In this document: positions 819 to 15,279 of the stretch, one piece after another
Layout of the letters: every line of letters starts with the position of its first letter
Numbering within the stretch: position 1 is the first letter of the stretch
Virus record (IMG/VR): IMGVR_UViG_3300032265_000245
Span: 1 to 27,431 of that record
From: a virus
Reading direction: 5' to 3' (one strand)
Length of the DNA: 27,431 nt
The notes under the pieces: generated by a model
Seen by the model: the letters and a program-made list of their open reading frames with translations, nothing else
What the model was told of the DNA's origin: nothing
Database searches by the model: none
Translations under genes and position numbers: made by a program

Positions 819-998
819 TTATTCCTTGTCCAATTCTGTAACTACCTTAGCAATACTACCGCATTCAACACAGGTAGCATCTGTCATATACATGCCAATC
901 TCATAATCCTCATCAAACTTACACTTAACGTTCCACCATTCAGAACCGCAATGGCAGACACGGATAGGTCCAAGTGAGCGTAGATCAGTGGCAAACAT
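819..998 (-). CDS. Small zinc-ribbon-like protein, 59 aa
   Basis: This short gene begins at the ATG at 998, overlapping the stop of the upstream nuclease fragment as TAATG, and ends in TAA at 821-819. The protein begins MFATDLRSLG. It carries a CHC motif (Cys15, Cys17), a further Cys26, and CVEC (Cys43, Cys46), followed by Gly and Ser as in zinc knuckles. The aromatic SEWWNVKC stretch lies between the cysteine pairs. The pattern suggests a compact zinc-binding fold for nucleic-acid or protein contact; the precise family is unknown. Together with the 62-aa gene downstream it forms the insert between the two nuclease halves. Confidence 0.7.
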   Translation of the reverse strand: MFATDLRSLGPIRVCHCGSEWWNVKCKFDEDYEIGMYMTDATCVECGSIAKVVTELDKE

Positions 999-1216
999 TA
1001 GAACGGTATGTCAACCGTGGTTGACTTGTCTTGTGCTTTATCAAACTGTTGTAGCAGATACTTTTCTGCCGCTGCGTGAAACGCAGATCCACCAACAAAC
1101 CACCAAGCTGGTTCTGAAGGTGCTTGTAAACCACGTTCTAGTTGCCATGCTTTACCGCAACGTAGCCATGATGTAAATGAACTAAACGATCTATGTTGTA
1201 TTGTTATTTCAGCCAT
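998..1216 (-). CDS. N-terminal half of a split Cas4/RecB-like PD-(D/E)XK exonuclease, 72 aa
   Basis: I place the start at the ATG at 1216 (MAEITIQHRSF) rather than at 1264 in the same frame. The 1216 ATG lies six bases after an extended -10 motif, TGCTACCCT, and the residues before it look unlike the family. The protein has the RecB/Cas4 N-terminal signature: FSSFTSWLRCGKAWQ, where Cys20 matches the first 4Fe-4S ligand of Cas4/AddB enzymes, then GGSAFHAAAEKYL with His46 and Glu51 of the GxxxHxxxxE helix. It then stops after VDIPF. The rest of the enzyme is at 632-1, separated by two small genes. It is the first gene after the late terminator and so opens a new operon. The homology is clear; function as a two-chain enzyme is inferred. 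Confidence 0.75.
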   Translation of the reverse strand: MAEITIQHRSFSSFTSWLRCGKAWQLERGLQAPSEPAWWFVGGSAFHAAAEKYLLQQFDKAQDKSTTVDIPF

Positions 1217-1254
1217 GCGATAAGGGTAGCAGATAGGCATGAGAGGCGTGTCAA
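1217..1254 (-). promoter_or_regulatory. Putative promoter for the nuclease operon, leaderless geometry
   Basis: On the minus strand an extended -10, TGC TACCCT (1231-1223), ends six bases before the ATG at 1216. A TTGACA box lies at 1254-1249, but the 20-base spacer is longer than ideal, so the extended -10 probably carries most of the weight. No Shine-Dalgarno sequence precedes the ATG. This geometry would put the transcript start at or next to the start codon, as in leaderless actinobacterial genes. It follows the late-operon terminator, as expected for a new transcription unit. Confidence 0.5.
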
Positions 1255-1283
1255 GTTGAGCCATTGGCGCGTCAAGTTGCGCC
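1245..1283. repeat. Two-copy 18-bp direct repeat, candidate operator
   Basis: GGCGTGTCAAGTTGAGCC (1245-1262) and GGCGCGTCAAGTTGCGCC (1266-1283) match at 16 of 18 positions and are 21 bp apart, so they lie on nearly the same face of the helix. The second copy has an inverted repeat, GGCGC...GCGCC, at its ends. Each copy contains a TTGAC box on the minus strand, and the first supplies the possible -35 of the nuclease promoter. A repressor or activator site is a reasonable reading; no regulator gene is present in the window. Confidence 0.45.
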
Positions 1284-3695: not shown

Positions 3696-5897
3696 TTATA
3701 CGGTACGGAACTGAACGTTAATTAACCCACCAAAACCTGTGAAGCGTCGCTCAGGTGGAGTCATACGAAGAAATGTAATAGATTCAATAACACCACGGAC
3801 TGTTTCTCCATTGGTAAAATCTTGAAGAACAATAACATCTCCGCCTGATTCAATTGTTTCAAGCGCATTTAAACGTTCAGCAGCACGACCTTCATAGCCA
3901 GTAGTCATGTTGTATCTATCGCCTTCAAAGTCAAAATTAAGCAAAGGCAAAGTAATAATGCGTTGACGCTTAACAGCTGGAAGGGCTTTAAGTTGATAGC
4001 CGTTAAAAGAATCTTCTGAACCTACTGTTTGCCCACTTGAAGGATAAAGGGTAAAGCGCAGGGCAATAGATTCTTTCGGATAAAGGTCGTAGTTATCTAG
4101 ACCCACAATATCTTGTGTAAAGTCAAAGTTATTATCTACAGTAATAAGATCAGTTACTGATTGATTTGAGTCAACAAAAGACAGTTTAAGTGTGCCAAAG
4201 ATTGGTTGTGTCACACGTAATTTAGCCAACTCAAAGTGCTTATCTTCAAGGGTAAAGTACCGGATCTGTCCAGTCTGTAGGTAACCTGAGGTAACCAATG
4301 TGTTGGACTGAAAATAAATACCATTGCTGGCTACGCCAATAGCCAATTTACCAGTCTTGCCAATGGTGACTACTTGAGAAGCCTCAGCTGTTGTAGGCAC
4401 ACGCAAGTGTGTGGCATACGCCACTTGGTTTGGTGACAATTGACGGCTCAAATCAAGTTTGACTAAGCCAGAAGAAAAGGTGCCATCGCCATTGTCAATG
4501 TAGTTTGTGACTGTGCAATAAGCAAATCTGTCTTGGAAGGTAATTGATTTAACAGGTAAGCCATTAAGTTGAGTACCTTGGGCTGGATCATAGCCATTGG
4601 TGATAACAGAGATTGGACCATAGGTAATATAACCATTTGAGTAAAATCCTGATGTATCAATTTCACCTACGCGTACACCTTTATTGGTACCAAAGACCAT
4701 GTACTTACCAACATAGGATCCAATGGCATAAACAATTTCACCCTTTGGCATATCCGCTGCTGTCAAAGCACGGGTAAGAAGTGGCACGGCGCCTGATGTA
4801 TCAAGGACTAGGCGGAAAATGCTAGATGAATCTCCAACATATCCTGAAACATAAATGTTGTTTGGTCCTTCACAAATACCAGTCCATACCCAGTTTGTAT
4901 CAGGATGGGCATAGATAGGAAGATTGTTGTTGCTTGCAAGAGTAACTGTTCCGCTTGCGCTAGCTTGGCTAACTGCGGCGTTGTTTAAGAAAAATACAAC
5001 CGATGTGCTGTTAGGCACATTTGTTACTGACCATGTGCCGTTGTAAGGAGAACCAACAGAGGCTACAGTAATTAAAGAACCAACTGCAAAATTGTGAGAA
5101 GATGAAGTAGTAAGGGTGGCGTTGTATGAGCCATCTACTTTGCTGGTTGTTACTGTATATGATGTAATTGGTTGTACTTCAAATAAGTAGTTGTTAATAC
5201 CAGCAATAAGGCGTTGTTTAACCCAACCTAATTTAACAACAGTAACTGTTCCGACCATAGATGGGTGGGTAAAGATTGATGTGCCGCTAGTAGCGCCAGT
5301 AAGTGGGCCGCGATAGATGCCTGTGGCATTAGCTGCATAGTAGTTAAGACCATCTTGGGCTACGGATAGGATCGTACCTGAACCGCCCCATGTCAAAGTT
5401 GTAGTTGTACCAGCAGCTGTTGTGCGATAAAGGGTAGATCCATCTGACCAAATAACTAGATCAACACCATTAACATCGGTACCACCAACCATAATTGGTG
5501 TAGCACTTGGAGTAGTAGATAGTTTTGTAACATCTGGCAATAGTGTTACCTTGCCAATATTAAATACATCTACCCCGGCTGATTTGGTAAAGCGTAGCCC
5601 AACAGTGTCGCCTTCAATTGGCTCTTCATAGCGGATACCAGCTCCGTAATGAAATGAAGATTGGCTACGAAGCCACCAACCTGTGAGTGTCTGCTCACCT
5701 GGTTCTTTCTGTTGGTCAATCTGTTGCTTGCGATACTGCGCAGTCTCACGCTTGTATGGGTATTCTTTTGATACGCCAAGGAAGAATGGCAGGCCAGCAA
5801 TAGCACAGTCGTATTGGTTGCTAGTGTTGTAAAAGGTGGATCCAGATGTTGATGGTTGACCGACTGGGATGTCGGGTTTATCAATGATACTTGTCAC
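3696..5897 (-). CDS. Large beta-rich tail protein (tail nozzle-like or minor tail), 733 aa
   Basis: The start is GTG at 5897, six bases after a GGAG Shine-Dalgarno sequence (5907-5904); the nearby ATG at 5901 is in another frame that stops after six codons. The protein is rich in Thr, Ser, Gly and Val and has repeated short strand units (VIWSDGSTLYRTTAAGT, YYAANATGIYRGPLTG) suggestive of a propeller-like fold. Residues about 247-320 look like an inserted adhesin-type beta domain (SSHNFAVGSLITVASVG and NGTWSVTNVP). The C-terminal part (GGDVIVLQDFTNGETVRGVI, RFTGFGGLINVQFRT) is typical of tail base or nozzle proteins. It is the last structural gene before lysis. Nozzle identity is inferred from size, fold type and the lack of long-tail genes. 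Confidence 0.6.
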   Translation of the reverse strand: MTSIIDKPDIPVGQPSTSGSTFYNTSNQYDCAIAGLPFFLGVSKEYPYKRETAQYRKQQIDQQKEPGEQTLTGWWLRSQSSFHYGAGIRYEEPIEGDTVGLRFTKSAGVDVFNIGKVTLLPDVTKLSTTPSATPIMVGGTDVNGVDLVIWSDGSTLYRTTAAGTTTTLTWGGSGTILSVAQDGLNYYAANATGIYRGPLTGATSGTSIFTHPSMVGTVTVVKLGWVKQRLIAGINNYLFEVQPITSYTVTTSKVDGSYNATLTTSSSHNFAVGSLITVASVGSPYNGTWSVTNVPNSTSVVFFLNNAAVSQASASGTVTLASNNNLPIYAHPDTNWVWTGICEGPNNIYVSGYVGDSSSIFRLVLDTSGAVPLLTRALTAADMPKGEIVYAIGSYVGKYMVFGTNKGVRVGEIDTSGFYSNGYITYGPISVITNGYDPAQGTQLNGLPVKSITFQDRFAYCTVTNYIDNGDGTFSSGLVKLDLSRQLSPNQVAYATHLRVPTTAEASQVVTIGKTGKLAIGVASNGIYFQSNTLVTSGYLQTGQIRYFTLEDKHFELAKLRVTQPIFGTLKLSFVDSNQSVTDLITVDNNFDFTQDIVGLDNYDLYPKESIALRFTLYPSSGQTVGSEDSFNGYQLKALPAVKRQRIITLPLLNFDFEGDRYNMTTGYEGRAAERLNALETIESGGDVIVLQDFTNGETVRGVIESITFLRMTPPERRFTGFGGLINVQFRTV

Positions 5898-5907
5898 CCA
5901 TTACTCC

Positions 5908-6705
5908 TTATTCTAAAAGGTTCACCAACGTTCTTGTACGTCCGTGAGCCAACTGTGTATATACCTGCGTGGTTGCGACACTTGAGTGGCGCATAAGTTC
6001 TTTAACAGCAATCAAATCGCCACCGCTTTTTTCAAGCATTGTGGTGGCAAAGTAATGTCTAAGGCTGTGGAAATGCTTTGCCTCTGAACCAAGGATGCGA
6101 CGCATCTCATTGGCTGCTTTGGCAGAAAACTTGTTTGGGTCAATACGCCATAATCTATCTAGCGTGTTGTGAGACTTAATCATCTCAGCCACTACAGGGC
6201 TGATCGGTATAACAAGGTCGGTATTGCCCTTGCCTATGACGCTGAGCATTGGACCTTCGTCCGTCTCAATAAGGTCTGAGCCTTTAATCTTGGCTGCTTC
6301 CATACAGCGCAAGCCAGCCATACCACCTAGGATAAACCAGTCTCTAAAGGGTTGATCTGCGTCGGCTAATAGCTTTGCATACTCAGCCTTAGTTACGGGC
6401 TTAGGCACCCCTCTGCCGGCTTTTACGTCGGGCAAATCAAGGGCTGGGTTATTGTCATTGACAAGCCCTAGCTTGTTCAGGTGCTTGTAGATAGACCGTA
6501 AGCGAGAGACATAGTTAGCTTTGGTTGACTGCTTGGTAGCAGCCAGCACAACCTTCTCTAGATCTTCTCGCTTAGCCAAGGCAGGGTGTACGCCTATACG
6601 GCGTATGATCTGCCAGTCAGTCCTAATAACATACGGGCTAAAGCCCGATGAATCGTAGCGATTCTTGAGCTGGCGGTATATCTCGTCCATTGGTGTAAGT
6701 TCCAT
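5908..6705 (-). CDS. Tyrosine recombinase (integrase), 265 aa
   Basis: The N-terminal half (about 1-100) is a helical SAM-like core-binding domain. The catalytic domain follows, with all expected residues: Arg133 in AGLRCMEA, Lys159 in IGKGN, the box HFHSLRHYFA with His213 and Arg216, His240 in LMRHSS, and the nucleophile Tyr249 in TTQVYTQL. The enzyme should cut and rejoin DNA through a 3'-phosphotyrosine, most simply for phage integration and excision. It stands alone between a fibre-tip partner gene and the large tail gene, an unusual place for an integrase. It has no Shine-Dalgarno sequence but has an extended -10 just upstream, so it is probably expressed separately from the late operon. 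An alternative role is rearrangement of the neighbouring fibre genes. Confidence 0.92.
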   Translation of the reverse strand: MELTPMDEIYRQLKNRYDSSGFSPYVIRTDWQIIRRIGVHPALAKREDLEKVVLAATKQSTKANYVSRLRSIYKHLNKLGLVNDNNPALDLPDVKAGRGVPKPVTKAEYAKLLADADQPFRDWFILGGMAGLRCMEAAKIKGSDLIETDEGPMLSVIGKGNTDLVIPISPVVAEMIKSHNTLDRLWRIDPNKFSAKAANEMRRILGSEAKHFHSLRHYFATTMLEKSGGDLIAVKELMRHSSVATTQVYTQLAHGRTRTLVNLLE

Positions 6706-6736
6706 AGGACAAGCATACCACTAACTCTCAGTCAAG
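6706..6736 (-). promoter_or_regulatory. Putative leaderless promoter for the recombinase gene
   Basis: TGG TATGCT, an extended -10 (6720-6712), ends six bases before the ATG at 6705. This is the same geometry as the nuclease promoter at 1217-1254. A TTGACT lies at 6735-6730 but is only 12 bases from the -10, so it is probably not a working -35. There is no Shine-Dalgarno sequence in this 31-base gap, whereas most structural genes here have one. Confidence 0.5.
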
Positions 6737-6877
6737 TTAGCCCTGTGGAGCCTCTAGGCTGGCTAGGTAGGCTTGGTAGTCGCTGTTGGCAGGGTTTAAC
6801 GGGATGGTTGCTCCATCTGACCTTAGAACAACATTTTCTCCTGACAAAGTTTGATAAATTTCATAAGAATAGTCCAT
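6737..6877 (-). CDS. Tiny fibre-tip partner protein, copy 2, 46 aa
   Basis: The ATG at 6877 follows the fibre gene's stop by two bases, with the Shine-Dalgarno GGAG inside the fibre's last codons. The protein begins MDYSYEIYQTLSG and ends with the block IPLNPANSDYQAYLASL, which nearly repeats the block in the 57-aa gene at 8081-7908. Short proteins or domains with a P.D.AN.DYQ.YL signature commonly follow phage tail-fibre genes. A fibre-assembly helper or fibre-tip subunit is plausible. The repeated pairing with a fibre gene is the best evidence that the gene is real. Confidence 0.75.
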   Translation of the reverse strand: MDYSYEIYQTLSGENVVLRSDGATIPLNPANSDYQAYLASLEAPQG

Positions 6878-6879
6878 AA

Positions 6880-7908
6880 TTATAACTCCGCATTCGCTGT
6901 GTAATGTATATAAAGATAAGTTTTAACATTAACTGTTCCACCATTTATATAAACTGTAAAACGACCATCTTCAATTTGTTGTGTTGCAGCATTGACATCA
7001 GTTGCACTGGCTTCATTAAACCATTTTGCTGTTGTTCCGCTATTAGGAGAATACACAATTATAGTCGGGGCAGTTCGCATAATTTGTGGAAATGAAATAG
7101 TTAATCTTCCATCACCAGGGTTTGCATAAGTGACAGGTGCAAAATATCCATTTACATTGCTGAGCGATGTTGTTCCTGGAGTTGCACTTTGCGGGTAAGA
7201 TTTTGAATAGTACCTCTGGCACAAGGCTAACTCTCCTTGGACTGTTCCTGAAGCGGTGGTGAATGGGGTGGCTACTGAGCCTGCTTCTAGTTGAATGCCC
7301 CATACATCTACTGTAAAAGTAGTGTTGAGTGGCATATATAAAAATAAACCTAGGTTAGAGCCTGTACCAATGGTTTTTCCTGAAATGCTTGGAAACAAAA
7401 CTGTTGCGGTAAATCTTTGCCAAGAAGTAGTCAAAGCAAAATTGCTTCCAGCAGTTGTATAAACTGCACCCGAACCACCTGAGCCAAAATCTTGTCCAAC
7501 AGCAACGCTTGGCATAGTTATATTTGCCGCTGCCTTTGCCCAAAATGAAATGGTTACAGTTTGATTTGCAAAGATTCTTACATCTTCAATTTTTTGCAAA
7601 AGAACATTATATGTTCCACCTGAGCCTGCAACGCTTTGATTGAAACGATAAAAATATGTGCTTTCATAACCATTTACGGGTGCGGTACCAGGAGTAAAAG
7701 TCTGTTGGCTAAATGCTCTTGTTGCACCTGTACCATCCCAGTTGGTATACCATCTATCTGCGGTGTATGAATTGTTTGCAGAGAATGAAGTACCTCTTTG
7801 CCACACACCAAAATCACCATTGATAATTTTGTTCTTGCCTGCAAGGAACGGGCTGGCCGCACCTGCTGAGTTTTGTTCTACTGTTGAGGTTAATTGTGCG
7901 CGACTCAT
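6880..7908 (-). CDS. Tail fibre / receptor-binding tip protein, copy 2 (short form), 342 aa
   Basis: After a short N-terminus the protein enters a carbohydrate-binding-like beta-sandwich that starts NKIINGDFGVWQRGTSFS (26-43) and YTADRWY, then a segment with GSVATPFTTASGTVQGE and LALCQRYYSKS, and a C-terminal beta domain ending in YTANAEL. The order NxxFxxWQRGT...ADRW...VQGELALCQRYY is shared with the 465-aa protein upstream, so the two are paralogues. This copy lacks the N-terminal anchor of the longer one. The start overlaps the stop of the 57-aa gene (TAATG). It probably binds the host surface, or serves as an alternative tip. Sugar specificity cannot be read from the sequence. Confidence 0.75.
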   Translation of the reverse strand: MSRAQLTSTVEQNSAGAASPFLAGKNKIINGDFGVWQRGTSFSANNSYTADRWYTNWDGTGATRAFSQQTFTPGTAPVNGYESTYFYRFNQSVAGSGGTYNVLLQKIEDVRIFANQTVTISFWAKAAANITMPSVAVGQDFGSGGSGAVYTTAGSNFALTTSWQRFTATVLFPSISGKTIGTGSNLGLFLYMPLNTTFTVDVWGIQLEAGSVATPFTTASGTVQGELALCQRYYSKSYPQSATPGTTSLSNVNGYFAPVTYANPGDGRLTISFPQIMRTAPTIIVYSPNSGTTAKWFNEASATDVNAATQQIEDGRFTVYINGGTVNVKTYLYIHYTANAEL

Positions 7909-8081
7909 TAGTTACCTGCCTGTGGTGTAGAAGAGTTGGATACGAGTGTTGCTAGGTATGCTTGGTAATCGCTGTTAGCAGGGTCGGTAGGGATGAACCA
8001 AACCTGACCATTTTCGTCTGTGCGCTTTATGCAGACATTACCAAAATCAGATGTAATTACTTCATAATTTGATTGATTCAT
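7908..8081 (-). CDS. Tiny fibre-tip partner protein, copy 1, 57 aa
   Basis: The gene starts at the ATG at 8081, overlapping the fibre stop as TAATG, with GGAG inside the fibre's last codons. It ends at 7908, overlapping the next fibre gene's ATG in the same way. The protein reads MNQSNYEVITSDFGNV at the start and has WFIPTDPANSDYQAYLATL near the end. The PANSDYQAYLA block is identical to the one in the 46-aa protein at 6877-6737. Position and similarity suggest a fibre-assembly chaperone or a separate tip peptide. Confidence 0.78.
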   Translation of the reverse strand: MNQSNYEVITSDFGNVCIKRTDENGQVWFIPTDPANSDYQAYLATLVSNSSTPQAGN

Positions 8082-9478
8082 TACAACTCCGCACTAAAAT
8101 CATAATTGGCTGTACCTGCTGATGGGGCAAGAATTACACCTGGTCTGCCCGCAATTAAACCTGAACTTGTAAAACTTACACTAACGCCATCAACAGTCGC
8201 TCCATAAGTAGCAACTGATGCAGTTGGCGCTGTTGAACCATCATAAGCCCGTGGCGAGCCAGTTAAAGAAAATGATGGTGCTGTTCGCATTGTTACTGGC
8301 ATAGTAATTGGTACACCAGCCAACGAAGTGCTGGTGTTATTTACGCCAGTTCCTATTGGTGCATCTGTTCCAGCCGTTGCACTTTTTCTTACAAAGTACC
8401 TCTGACAAGCGGCTAACTCCCCCTGAACTGTTCCAGCGTAAGTGCGGAAGGGTAGGGCTACTGAACCAATGTCAACCTGCATACCAGTTACTTCAAAGTA
8501 ATCATTCGTACCAGCCGTACCAGTTGGCGTAAATCCGAAGGTTGGTGCTAATTGCGTTATTGATGTGGCAAGAGTTGCGCTATAAGAAAAGCGTTGCCAA
8601 GTAGTTGTAAGCGTTGCAGTTTGACTTATTGGCTGTGCTTGACCAGTAAATCCTGATAAAACATTTTGGTCAGTTCCCGTGCCTGTTTGTAAATACACAG
8701 CCAGTGCGTTAGATGTTGCTGAATAATTAGCACCAGCCCGAGCATAAAATGACATTGTAACAGTTTTGCCAGCAAAGGGAATTGAATTAATTGTTTCAAA
8801 AGATGTTGCAACCGCCATTGTTGAAGTGCCAGTTTGTCCTGAGTTTCGTTGCACTCTTGCACAATATTGAATAAACGGCAAATTTGTTGTGTCATTTGTT
8901 GTCTGTCTTGAAAATGTAAAAGCCTGATTTGCATTAGTGTTTATACTCCAACGGTCTGCTGCATAAGTGGCTGTGTTTGATGCTGCAATAGCAACAGAAG
9001 TACCGCGTTGCCATATTTGAAAGGCTGAATTAAGAACTGGATTAGCCGATGCTGGCCCTGCCCAAGCAACACCTGTTGCGCTGGAAGAGTTTGCCACGAG
9101 TGTTGTACCGTCAGCTCCGACTGCAAGGTTGGTGACTGAAGCTGCGCCGTTGGCTACGATCAAGTCCCCTTTGGCTCCAACAGTAGAATTGGGGATAGCG
9201 TTAGCCACGTTAAATGAGTTGGCGGACATTACGGTAGCAATGTCACCAGCAACTAGAGCGGTTAGCCCTGTGATGGATGTACCGGTTGAGGCTGTGTAAT
9301 CCACAGCACGCTCAAGCAATACGCCGTTGATATAAACTTCTTCAGCTCCTACTGTGTAGGAGAGGCTTAGTCCAAAGCCATCTGTGCCTGAAAGGGTTGT
9401 CTCGCCACCAGTGGCTGTGTAACGCCACTGCTTAACGGTAACAGCCGTTCCAGTACTAGGGTGACGGATTACTGACAT
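8081..9478 (-). CDS. Tail fibre / receptor-binding protein, copy 1 (long form), 465 aa
   Basis: Residues 1-90 form a beta-rich anchor (EEVYINGVLLERAVDYTAS and ITGLTALVAGDIATVMSAN) as in fibre attachment domains. GAKGDLIVANGAASVTNLAV and GADGTTLVANSSSATGVAWA (101-140) form the linker repeats common in tail fibres. NPVLNSAFQIWQRGTSVAI (146-164) opens a carbohydrate-binding-like sandwich. GTVQGELAACQRYFVRKS leads into the C-terminal tip ending NYDFSAEL. The tip is paralogous to the 342-aa protein downstream, while the anchor is present only here. The gene starts next to the stop of the 116-aa gene. It is the likely main host-recognition fibre. Confidence 0.8.
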   Translation of the reverse strand: MSVIRHPSTGTAVTVKQWRYTATGGETTLSGTDGFGLSLSYTVGAEEVYINGVLLERAVDYTASTGTSITGLTALVAGDIATVMSANSFNVANAIPNSTVGAKGDLIVANGAASVTNLAVGADGTTLVANSSSATGVAWAGPASANPVLNSAFQIWQRGTSVAIAASNTATYAADRWSINTNANQAFTFSRQTTNDTTNLPFIQYCARVQRNSGQTGTSTMAVATSFETINSIPFAGKTVTMSFYARAGANYSATSNALAVYLQTGTGTDQNVLSGFTGQAQPISQTATLTTTWQRFSYSATLATSITQLAPTFGFTPTGTAGTNDYFEVTGMQVDIGSVALPFRTYAGTVQGELAACQRYFVRKSATAGTDAPIGTGVNNTSTSLAGVPITMPVTMRTAPSFSLTGSPRAYDGSTAPTASVATYGATVDGVSVSFTSSGLIAGRPGVILAPSAGTANYDFSAEL

Positions 9479-12199: not shown

Positions 12200-12643
12200 T
12201 TATACTACCCCTGTTTCTTTCATTACCTTTGCAGACTGCTTGGTAATCTTGGATGCTGCTGGCATAGATTCTGCGTTAAATGCAACGCCTAGTTTGTCAC
12301 TAGCCTCTTTTGCTTCAGCAACTGCTTTCATTGTTGTACCCGCTGGTTGGATACCTTGTGAACGAGCATCTGCATAAGCATCTAACTCTGCCGTCCACTT
12401 CTTATCAGACATAGAATTTGACCTGCCAGCATCACCAGTGTTAAGTTCTAATGTCCTAATCTTGCAAGCAAAACACCCATCAATATAATCATCGTGCTGA
12501 TTATGATCCGATGGTATTTCTGCATAAATTGGTATTGTGGTATACGTTTCATGGCATTCGGCACAGCCGTATTTAACAGGTATAGTGTTGTACTTTTCAT
12601 CAAAGCCCCACTCAATTACCTTGCTCGTATGTTGATGGTCCAT
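12200..12643 (-). CDS. Zinc-motif protein with helical C-terminus, 147 aa
   Basis: GCAEC (Cys27, Cys30) and GCFAC (Cys57, Cys60) form two CxxC pairs 26 residues apart, consistent with one zinc site. His-rich flanks (MDHQHTS, SDHNQHDDY) may add ligands. The second half (KKWTAELDAYADARSQGIQP, then KAVAEAKEASDKLGVAFNAE) is helical and ends KVMKETGVV. A good Shine-Dalgarno sequence, AGGTG, precedes the ATG, which lies within the end of the glycosyltransferase gene (32-base overlap). I believe this two-part arrangement is common in aquatic actinophages, but its function is unknown to me. Confidence 0.7.
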   Translation of the reverse strand: MDHQHTSKVIEWGFDEKYNTIPVKYGCAECHETYTTIPIYAEIPSDHNQHDDYIDGCFACKIRTLELNTGDAGRSNSMSDKKWTAELDAYADARSQGIQPAGTTMKAVAEAKEASDKLGVAFNAESMPAASKITKQSAKVMKETGVV

Positions 12644-13688
12644 TCTTCACCTGTCTAAAAAATTGTAGGTTGCGTTGAATACGCTCTGTTTCTTCGCCAT
12701 TACCCTTAACAGCATTCTCGGCAAAAACAATTGCTTCGTCAATATGCTTAAGGTTGTAAGCGGCGATTGAGGCAAGATCAAAAGCCTTCCAATCCCATAC
12801 CGCTGATTCGTAGCAGTAGTGGACTGATCTAGGCCGTTCCAAAACATTGACACAAGCATCTAAACATCTTGGCCAGTTTTGTTGGCGATAGGCATTGATA
12901 GCCACGCCATACCATGATTCACCTTCACGGGGAAGAAGTTGTACACCTTTGTCATACCATTGAGTAGCTTCATCTTCACGACCCAATTGATGAGCAGCCT
13001 CACCTGCCCATCGGCAGACAGCGGCTTGTTCTACATCCCAGCCATTGAGCGGAATTTGTTTCTCAGCAGATGAGATAACATCTTCCCATTTATGGTGGAA
13101 ATAATATTCGCGGGTCATATAAGTCCACATACGAGCATCGTGTGGATTTTCTTTTACCGCTAGTTCAAGTAAAGTTAGATATTGTCCTCTGGACTTGCTG
13201 TCGTCGGGAAGGTGTTTAATAACGGCGTTGCGTATGTCGCAATCTCGTGTGTCACCTTGTCCGTACCACAGTTGCACTTCGTGGCAAGGGTATTTCCATG
13301 CCCATCCAAATCGTGAATGAAGTCTGTCTCGTTCCCATTTTTGACCAGTATCCATGCTGACCCAGCCAAGATGTGAACCTGGTACCCACTTTTGTTTGAC
13401 TTTCTTAAAGAAGGTTGGTTCTGGAACTTCGTCCATATCCAAGATAAGGCAGACATCAACATCCTTTGGGACAAGTGATAAGGCTGTGTTGCGAGCCACA
13501 TCAAAGCGAAATGGATCTAAATGTATTTGATGAACGGTTATACCTAATTCACGCATTTTTTCTTGGCTACCATCGGTAGATCCAGTATCAACTACGATGC
13601 GATAATCCGCATCTTTTGTAGCTTCTGCGTAACGCTCAATATGTTTAATCTCATTTTTACAAATGGAATAAACGGCTATCTTGGGCAT
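12612..13688 (-). CDS. Family 2 glycosyltransferase with TPR-like repeats, 358 aa
   Basis: The N-terminal GT-A domain shows IAVYSICKNEIKHIERY, VVDTGSTDGS (Asp35 region, nucleotide-sugar binding) and LILDMDE with Asp84-x-Asp86 as the metal-binding DxD motif. Residues about 180-345 are helical repeats resembling TPRs (ARMWTYMTREYYFHHKWEDV, CRWAGEAAHQLGREDEATQW, GVAINAYRQQNWPRCLDAC). This build matches SunS-like, TPR-linked GT2 enzymes that modify proteins or small acceptors. The gene directly follows the collagen-like fibre gene, so that protein is the obvious candidate acceptor. An extended -10 overlaps the fibre stop codon, suggesting separate expression. The family is clear; the acceptor is inferred. 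Confidence 0.85.
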   Translation of the reverse strand: MPKIAVYSICKNEIKHIERYAEATKDADYRIVVDTGSTDGSQEKMRELGITVHQIHLDPFRFDVARNTALSLVPKDVDVCLILDMDEVPEPTFFKKVKQKWVPGSHLGWVSMDTGQKWERDRLHSRFGWAWKYPCHEVQLWYGQGDTRDCDIRNAVIKHLPDDSKSRGQYLTLLELAVKENPHDARMWTYMTREYYFHHKWEDVISSAEKQIPLNGWDVEQAAVCRWAGEAAHQLGREDEATQWYDKGVQLLPREGESWYGVAINAYRQQNWPRCLDACVNVLERPRSVHYCYESAVWDWKAFDLASIAAYNLKHIDEAIVFAENAVKGNGEETERIQRNLQFFRQVKNGPSTYEQGN

Positions 13689-13699
13689 ACCCTATTCTA

Positions 13700-13702
<3 letters not shown>
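13689..13702 (-). promoter_or_regulatory. Putative promoter for the glycosyltransferase gene
   Basis: TGA TAGAAT (13702-13694) is an extended -10 with five of six consensus bases, five bases before the ATG at 13688. Its TGA is also the stop codon of the collagen-like gene. The only purine-rich stretch, AGGGT, is too close to the ATG to act as a normal Shine-Dalgarno sequence. The arrangement resembles those at the nuclease and recombinase genes, but with one base less spacing. Confidence 0.35.

Positions 13703-15279
<1,577 letters not shown>

Follow-up and report, generated by a model that had tools for sequence, protein, structure and literature searches.

What is a complete integrase-type recombinase gene doing among the tail genes of a phage? 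The question is raised by a 27,431-nucleotide stretch of virus DNA, here called the window (IMG/VR virus record IMGVR_UViG_3300032265_000245, positions 1 to 27,431). An "integrase" in a virus contig is not, on its own, proof of a temperate phage. Fibre tips, for their part, largely set phage host range. We examine the recombinase gene, INT, its neighbours, and short DNA sites that recur around it.

The Recombinase Gene and Its Setting

INT encodes an arm-less tyrosine recombinase of 265 amino acid residues (Table 1). It has the PF00589 domain (E 1.5e-15) and the R-K-H-x-x-R-H-Y catalytic set by which tyrosine recombinases are recognized, and it matches the integrase family PHROG_1 (7.7e-33). 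The catalytic residues R133, K159, H213, R216, H240, and Y249 show no variation across 14 relatives. The AlphaFold2 model, with a mean pLDDT of 84 but low values over the tyrosine segment 241–253, predicts core-binding and catalytic parts only, with no arm-binding domain. The solved structure nearest to the model is the Brujita integrase, 5vfz, and the relatives found by tblastn are integrases of mycobacteriophage and Gordonia phage. No other PF00589 match occurs in the window record, a 27.4-kb fragment; the virus records examined here are fragments.

The gene lies on the late strand, with fibre 2 and a 46-aa ORF on one side and a 733-aa tail protein on the other. Thus, an earlier sequence-only reading of the window, which described a complete integrase-type recombinase on the late strand among the tail genes, is borne out. 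The interval given there ends at 6736, as it takes in the ORF, a promoter-like element, and part of the site described below. That reading also credited the gene with its own promoter-like element, and here conservation is supportive. The extended −10-like element TGGTATGCT stands 6 nt 5′ of the INT ATG. Among 26 non-redundant INT upstream sequences, TGNTANNNT is placed 6–7 nt before the start in 13, where shuffles expect 0.4, and TANNNT precedes the start in 19. This conservation beyond chance is compatible with a putative leaderless promoter. A generic promoter scan of the window missed the TGGTATGCT element and found no excess over shuffles, nor did a generic terminator scan.

The capsid and tail genes of the window phage are nearest to those of Streptomyces phages of the Beephvirinae. 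In phage Immanuel3, the gene for the homologue of the 733-aa protein comes immediately after a structural gene of unknown function, and no integrase intervenes; INT therefore has the appearance of an addition at this junction. Relatives of INT (at least 75% identity) were found in 80 virus contigs, nearly always directly 3′ of fibre genes; many of the loci compared apparently come from few sampling projects. The phages themselves vary. A 36-kb contig with genes for a tape measure, terminase, primase-polymerase, and thymidylate synthase represents another type of phage than the window does, yet has the same fibre-cassette-INT locus; this contig both starts and finishes inside the cassette region. 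That is, the module is found in differing phage backbones.

Table 1. Features of the fibre-INT locus, in window positions.
Feature	Position	Strand	Basis
733-aa tail protein after INT	3696..5897	-	homologue in Streptomyces phage Immanuel3, without INT before it
INT, arm-less tyrosine recombinase, 265 aa	5908..6705	-	PF00589/PHROG_1, invariant catalytic residues, AlphaFold2 model
Extended −10-like element TGGTATGCT, putative leaderless promoter of INT	6712..6720	-	conservation in INT upstream sequences
End site CTAACTTGACTGAGAGTTAG, putative recombination site next to INT	6721..6740	-	upstream comparison; identity break in the window
s46, 46-aa fibre-associated small ORF ending in the end site	6737..6877	-	ORF comparison
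Fibre 2 (fib342), tip variable after the f2 site	6880..7908	-	PHROG_4492 tail fibre, 1.7e-67
f2 site ACAGTCCAAGGAGAGTTA inside fibre 2 (T-V-Q-G-E-L codons)	7228..7245	-	frozen codons
s57, 57-aa fibre-associated small ORF	7911..8084	-	ORF comparison
Possible second-type site ACACTCGTATCCAACTCT in s57	7932..7949	-	island comparison
Fibre 1 (fib465)	8081..9478	-	PHROG_4492/38058 tail fibre
f1 site ACAGTTCAGGGGGAGTTA inside fibre 1	8414..8431	-	frozen codons
Possible second-type site f0 ACACTCGTGGCAAACTCT, N-terminal part of fibre 1	9086..9103	-	left breakpoint of the L018–L025 fibre swap

The End Site and the Small-Gene Cassettes

Just 5′ of INT is a short element, the end site, whose usual form, from DNA compared in the 80 related contigs, is GAACACTCCAC(A/C)GAGAGTTA. 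The 18-bp site adjoining INT follows the pattern ACACTY-N7-AGTTW, of which the window carries the variant AACTTGACTGAGAGTTA. The stop codon of s46 falls within the end site. On the INT side the sequence is constant, whereas 5′ of the site it differs from phage to phage.

In most INT loci the site adjoining INT is the last of a series. About a dozen contigs carry small gene cassettes, from one to three of them, in the interval that separates the fibre locus from INT, with the related site AACACTTGACTGAGAGTTTGCC at the cassette borders. In the window, INT follows s46 without any additional cassette. The genes in these cassettes are unrelated, and their cassettes finish in the site. Cassettes are shared with differing neighbours: K0 follows K1, K3, K20, or K43, and K3, an acetyltransferase cassette, is last or last but one in its array. 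One lineage shows five different cassette arrays; its INT genes share 99–100% identity, and the 1.5 kb downstream, where comparable, about 99.5%.

Five contigs (L013, L042, L051, L065, and L067) share a leader close to GGTGTAAGGTATTTCCTACCTAGAAGGGGGTA 5′ of their first cassette; it may be a promoter for the cassettes. INT was also considered as a cassette itself; inspection by eye of the 90 bp after the gene revealed no site, and the idea was dropped.

Sites inside the Fibre Genes

Both fibre genes bear the site motif, in identical codon phase, at the residues T-L/V-Q-G-E-L. The fibre 1 form is ACACTTCAGGGGGAGTTA, and the fibre 2 form is ACACTCCAAGG(A/C)GAGTTA. The codons are frozen at synonymous positions in 39 of 40 fibre 1 genes and in about 49 of 52 fibre 2 genes. 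In fibre 1, codon entropy is 0.17 bit for T, Q, G, E, and L and 0.58 bit for the Leu before Q, whereas at equally conserved neighbouring residues it reaches 1.4–2.2 bit. Fibre 2 shows similar freezing, save that the third base of the Gly codon is A or C. Related fibres from Stenotrophomonas, Rhizobium, Synechococcus, and marine phages have an ELALCQRYY-like motif written in other codons and lack the element.

The sites are also uniform in direction. Over 265 kb, ACACTY-N7-AGTTW matches number 163 in the coding orientation and 1 reversed. Of the 29 matches in 13 large contigs, 27 fall within the fibre-INT locus, and the reversed control pattern has none. In fibre-INT regions, ACACTY is followed at a fixed distance by A(C/G)T in 289 of 422 cases, against about 13 expected for random bases; as members of a class share ancestry, this count is no test of independence.

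A second type of frozen island, ACACTCGTKGCAAACTCT, is found in the N-terminal part of fibre 1, with relatives in small ORFs, and has only the ACACTY half in common with the sites above. The second-type islands are a lead only. Two INT-less contigs, L186 and L187 (G039 and G040), have five fibre-type sites in a row, in the order f1, f2, f2, f2, f1, apparently an amplified fibre array.

Mosaic Breakpoints

A breakpoint was defined as an end of a BLAST alignment between two phages at 95% identity or more; unique ends were counted and the site classes scored apart, as the loose f2 pattern also matches end sites. Sites hold 46 of 292 unique right ends and 56 of 303 unique left ends, 7.8-fold and 9.2-fold over the uniform expectation; counts from pairwise comparisons are not fully independent. 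Because related pairs violate the independence behind binomial p-values, we place weight on the fold values and on examples. Rightward of the end site, L055 matches L058 at 100% for 1201 bp, and leftward it matches L064 at 100% for 1272 bp; in both pairs similarity is absent across the site. Between the window and L003, L004, and L005, close similarity (at least 93%) starts at 6748 and is absent over 7211–6748, which comprises the fibre 2 tip and the small ORF.

Breakpoints at the end site are confined to about 16 bp. In the f1 and f2 areas they are scattered across about 100 bp of conserved sequence, so that for these two sites synonymous freezing is the stronger evidence; breakpoint support at f2 is moderate. 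Many further breakpoints fall outside sites. In the L018–L025 group, an entire fibre distinguishes phages that are otherwise near-identical; its limits are the second-type element and ACACTCC.

Contig ends also gather there: among the 29 contigs that reach 10 kb, 16 end within 1 kb of the end site, against 3.4 expected, a pile-up that is to be expected if natural populations vary there. Several mosaic junctions recur in more than one assembly, and chimeric assembly, joining at about 17 bp, is an unlikely source of the junctions. Genome comparison thus supports the exchange of fibre tips and small genes between freshwater phages at recurring sites.

The Role of INT and Competing Explanations

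We propose that this is a locus for tail-fibre cassette exchange, with INT as its recombinase acting on direct ACACTY-N7-AGTTW sites, a reading that we judge probable from the sequence comparisons. The enzyme is complete; the sites exist, are frozen at the DNA level, have one orientation, and carry mosaic breakpoints. INT would act on short direct sites beside itself, between small cassettes, and inside the fibres at the border between conserved body and variable tip. It would join sites that share a spacer class, whether these lie in co-infecting phages or one is on an excised circle, and differing spacers would hold unlike sites apart. The outcome would be replacement of a fibre tip and small gene, or the gain, loss, or swapping of small cassettes, in the manner of an integron. 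We infer that INT is the exchange enzyme, that the crossover lies inside the site, that the spacers determine specificity, and that the benefit of exchange is a change of host range.

Sites are not limited to phages with INT. Beyond the INT-bearing contigs, 13 with fibre sites and at least six with the end site yielded no INT and no tyrosine or serine recombinase match; contigs with sites and no PF00589 or PF00239 match are 15–96 kb in length. In such phages INT would act in trans, or another process uses the sites. One such process is ordinary homologous recombination, of phage or host, for which the 18-bp islands would be mere linkers between fibre modules and INT an unrelated passenger. Identical islands in INT-less phages fit this explanation, as does the extension of the f1 and f2 breakpoints into flanking conserved sequence. 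So does a further frozen island, GGATTTAGTGCGGAGTT(A/G)TAATG (GFSAEL stop), found at the fibre 3′ ends of related loci in up to 12 unlike contexts and devoid of the ACACT motif. Linkers would not, however, account readily for one motif in one orientation recurring in unrelated contexts (the fibre interior, the ends of different small genes, and the DNA beside INT), for cassettes of unrelated small genes that terminate in a site, or for end-site breakpoints within about 16 bp. We regard the linker explanation as unlikely, though it is the most serious of the alternatives.

The sequence-only reading had offered two roles for the recombinase. One, a displaced lysogeny integrase, finds no support, and INT is probably not a lysogeny integrase. 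On that account INT would have been shifted beside the fibres, the end site would serve as attP, and attP × attP recombination would produce the mosaics as a side effect. The Brujita enzyme, its nearest solved relative, is a lysogeny integrase; the tblastn relatives are phage integrases too, and a site adjoins the gene as attP adjoins int. But a pattern-seeded scan of about 85,000 bacterial and archaeal genomes found no INT relative beyond a 30% fragment and no INT-bearing prophage. In 14 contigs examined for repressors, no HTH_3 match rose above cut-off, and 4 had weak, sub-cut-off HTH_17 matches. Contig L061, besides INT, has on the opposite strand a second, longer tyrosine recombinase (4151–5254; 35–36% identity), adjoining a 48-aa ORF that is ribbon-helix-helix-like by eye. 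The additional sites within fibres and cassettes also speak against an attP, and we give this account very little credence. The sampled proteins of the 36-kb contig include no lysogeny gene among the few kinds sought. A tRNA-based attP was considered and rejected, as no tRNA was found in the window.

The other role, a recombinase rearranging fibre genes, stands in essence, as exchange between phages through direct-repeat sites together with a short cassette array and not as inversion, the sites being oriented 163:1. A shufflon, in which INT would invert fibre tips inside a single genome, as Rin does in Bifidobacterium prophages, shares with this locus an arm-less tyrosine recombinase adjoining receptor-binding genes and short repeats at the tip border (PMC6109161). 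With the sites in one direction and no inverted silent tips seen, it is the least credible of the explanations, and the cassette-exchange proposal is preferred.

Relation to Known Systems

The INT locus resembles a cross of an integron and the Rin shufflon. In the Rin systems of Bifidobacterium and Eggerthella prophages, resident tips are inverted between inverted sites (PMC6109161, PMC8778435). Like Rin, INT appears as a phage-encoded, arm-less tyrosine recombinase beside a receptor-binding gene, receptor binding being deduced here from the fibre family, with short in-gene repeats at the tip border; Rin too is distinct from the lysogeny integrase. The differences are the direct INT-locus sites and variation that is seen between phages.

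Like integrons, including phage-borne integrons and attC arrays (PMC9892861), the locus has one-way, site-bounded cassettes of small genes beside a tyrosine recombinase, with rapid turnover. The mobile cassette array next to a recombinase by which integrons are defined is present in a short form of 1–3 cassettes. Unlike an integron integrase, INT lies downstream of the cassettes on the same strand; the system also takes in the fibre tips; and INT scores 50.5 bits against the integron integrase model TIGR02249, the cut-off of which is 265. By inspection the sites also differ from attC: they are about 18 bp between nearly abutting ORFs, not long folded hairpins, and read GTTAGTG, GTTAGCC, or GTTTGCC rather than GTTRRRY.

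The Brujita integrase (Gp33) and related short mycobacteriophage integrases are arm-less and closest to INT in fold. Brujita is among the phages with integration-dependent immunity (PMC6109161); the INT locus, unlike that of Brujita, has several fibre-locus sites, and no lysogeny module was found. The Gin, Cin, and Min invertases likewise diversify tail-fibre C-termini by site-specific recombination (PMC6109161), but these are serine recombinases that act by inversion.

In the open-access literature we found no prior report of a fibre cassette system of the INT type, only shufflons and phage integrons. There is perhaps an even chance that the locus represents a cassette platform that is specific to phages and distinct from the integron family. 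Such a platform would have one arm-less recombinase and several spacer classes of direct sites, at the fibre body/tip border and after the fibres. Unrelated phages of the same habitat, including enzyme-less ones helped in trans, would draw on a shared pool of tips and cassettes. Exchange at the sites could permit quick host change. If the proposal is correct, a dedicated recombinase with standardized exchange sites would explain why unrelated freshwater phages share tips and accessory genes, and the locus would be a natural case of recombination sites kept separate by their spacers.

Other Features of the Window

Two further features of the window lie apart from the fibre-INT locus. A RecB-type exonuclease is encoded in two pieces, 3–632 and 998–1264 (-), that match consecutive parts of PHROG_1870 and have about 360 bp between them. 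The split is identical in the relatives L008, L015, L022, and L030, and could reflect an intervening element or two genes. In addition, a long collagen-like Gly-X-Y gene (13700–14932, -) adjoins a glycosyltransferase gene with TPR repeats (12612–13688).
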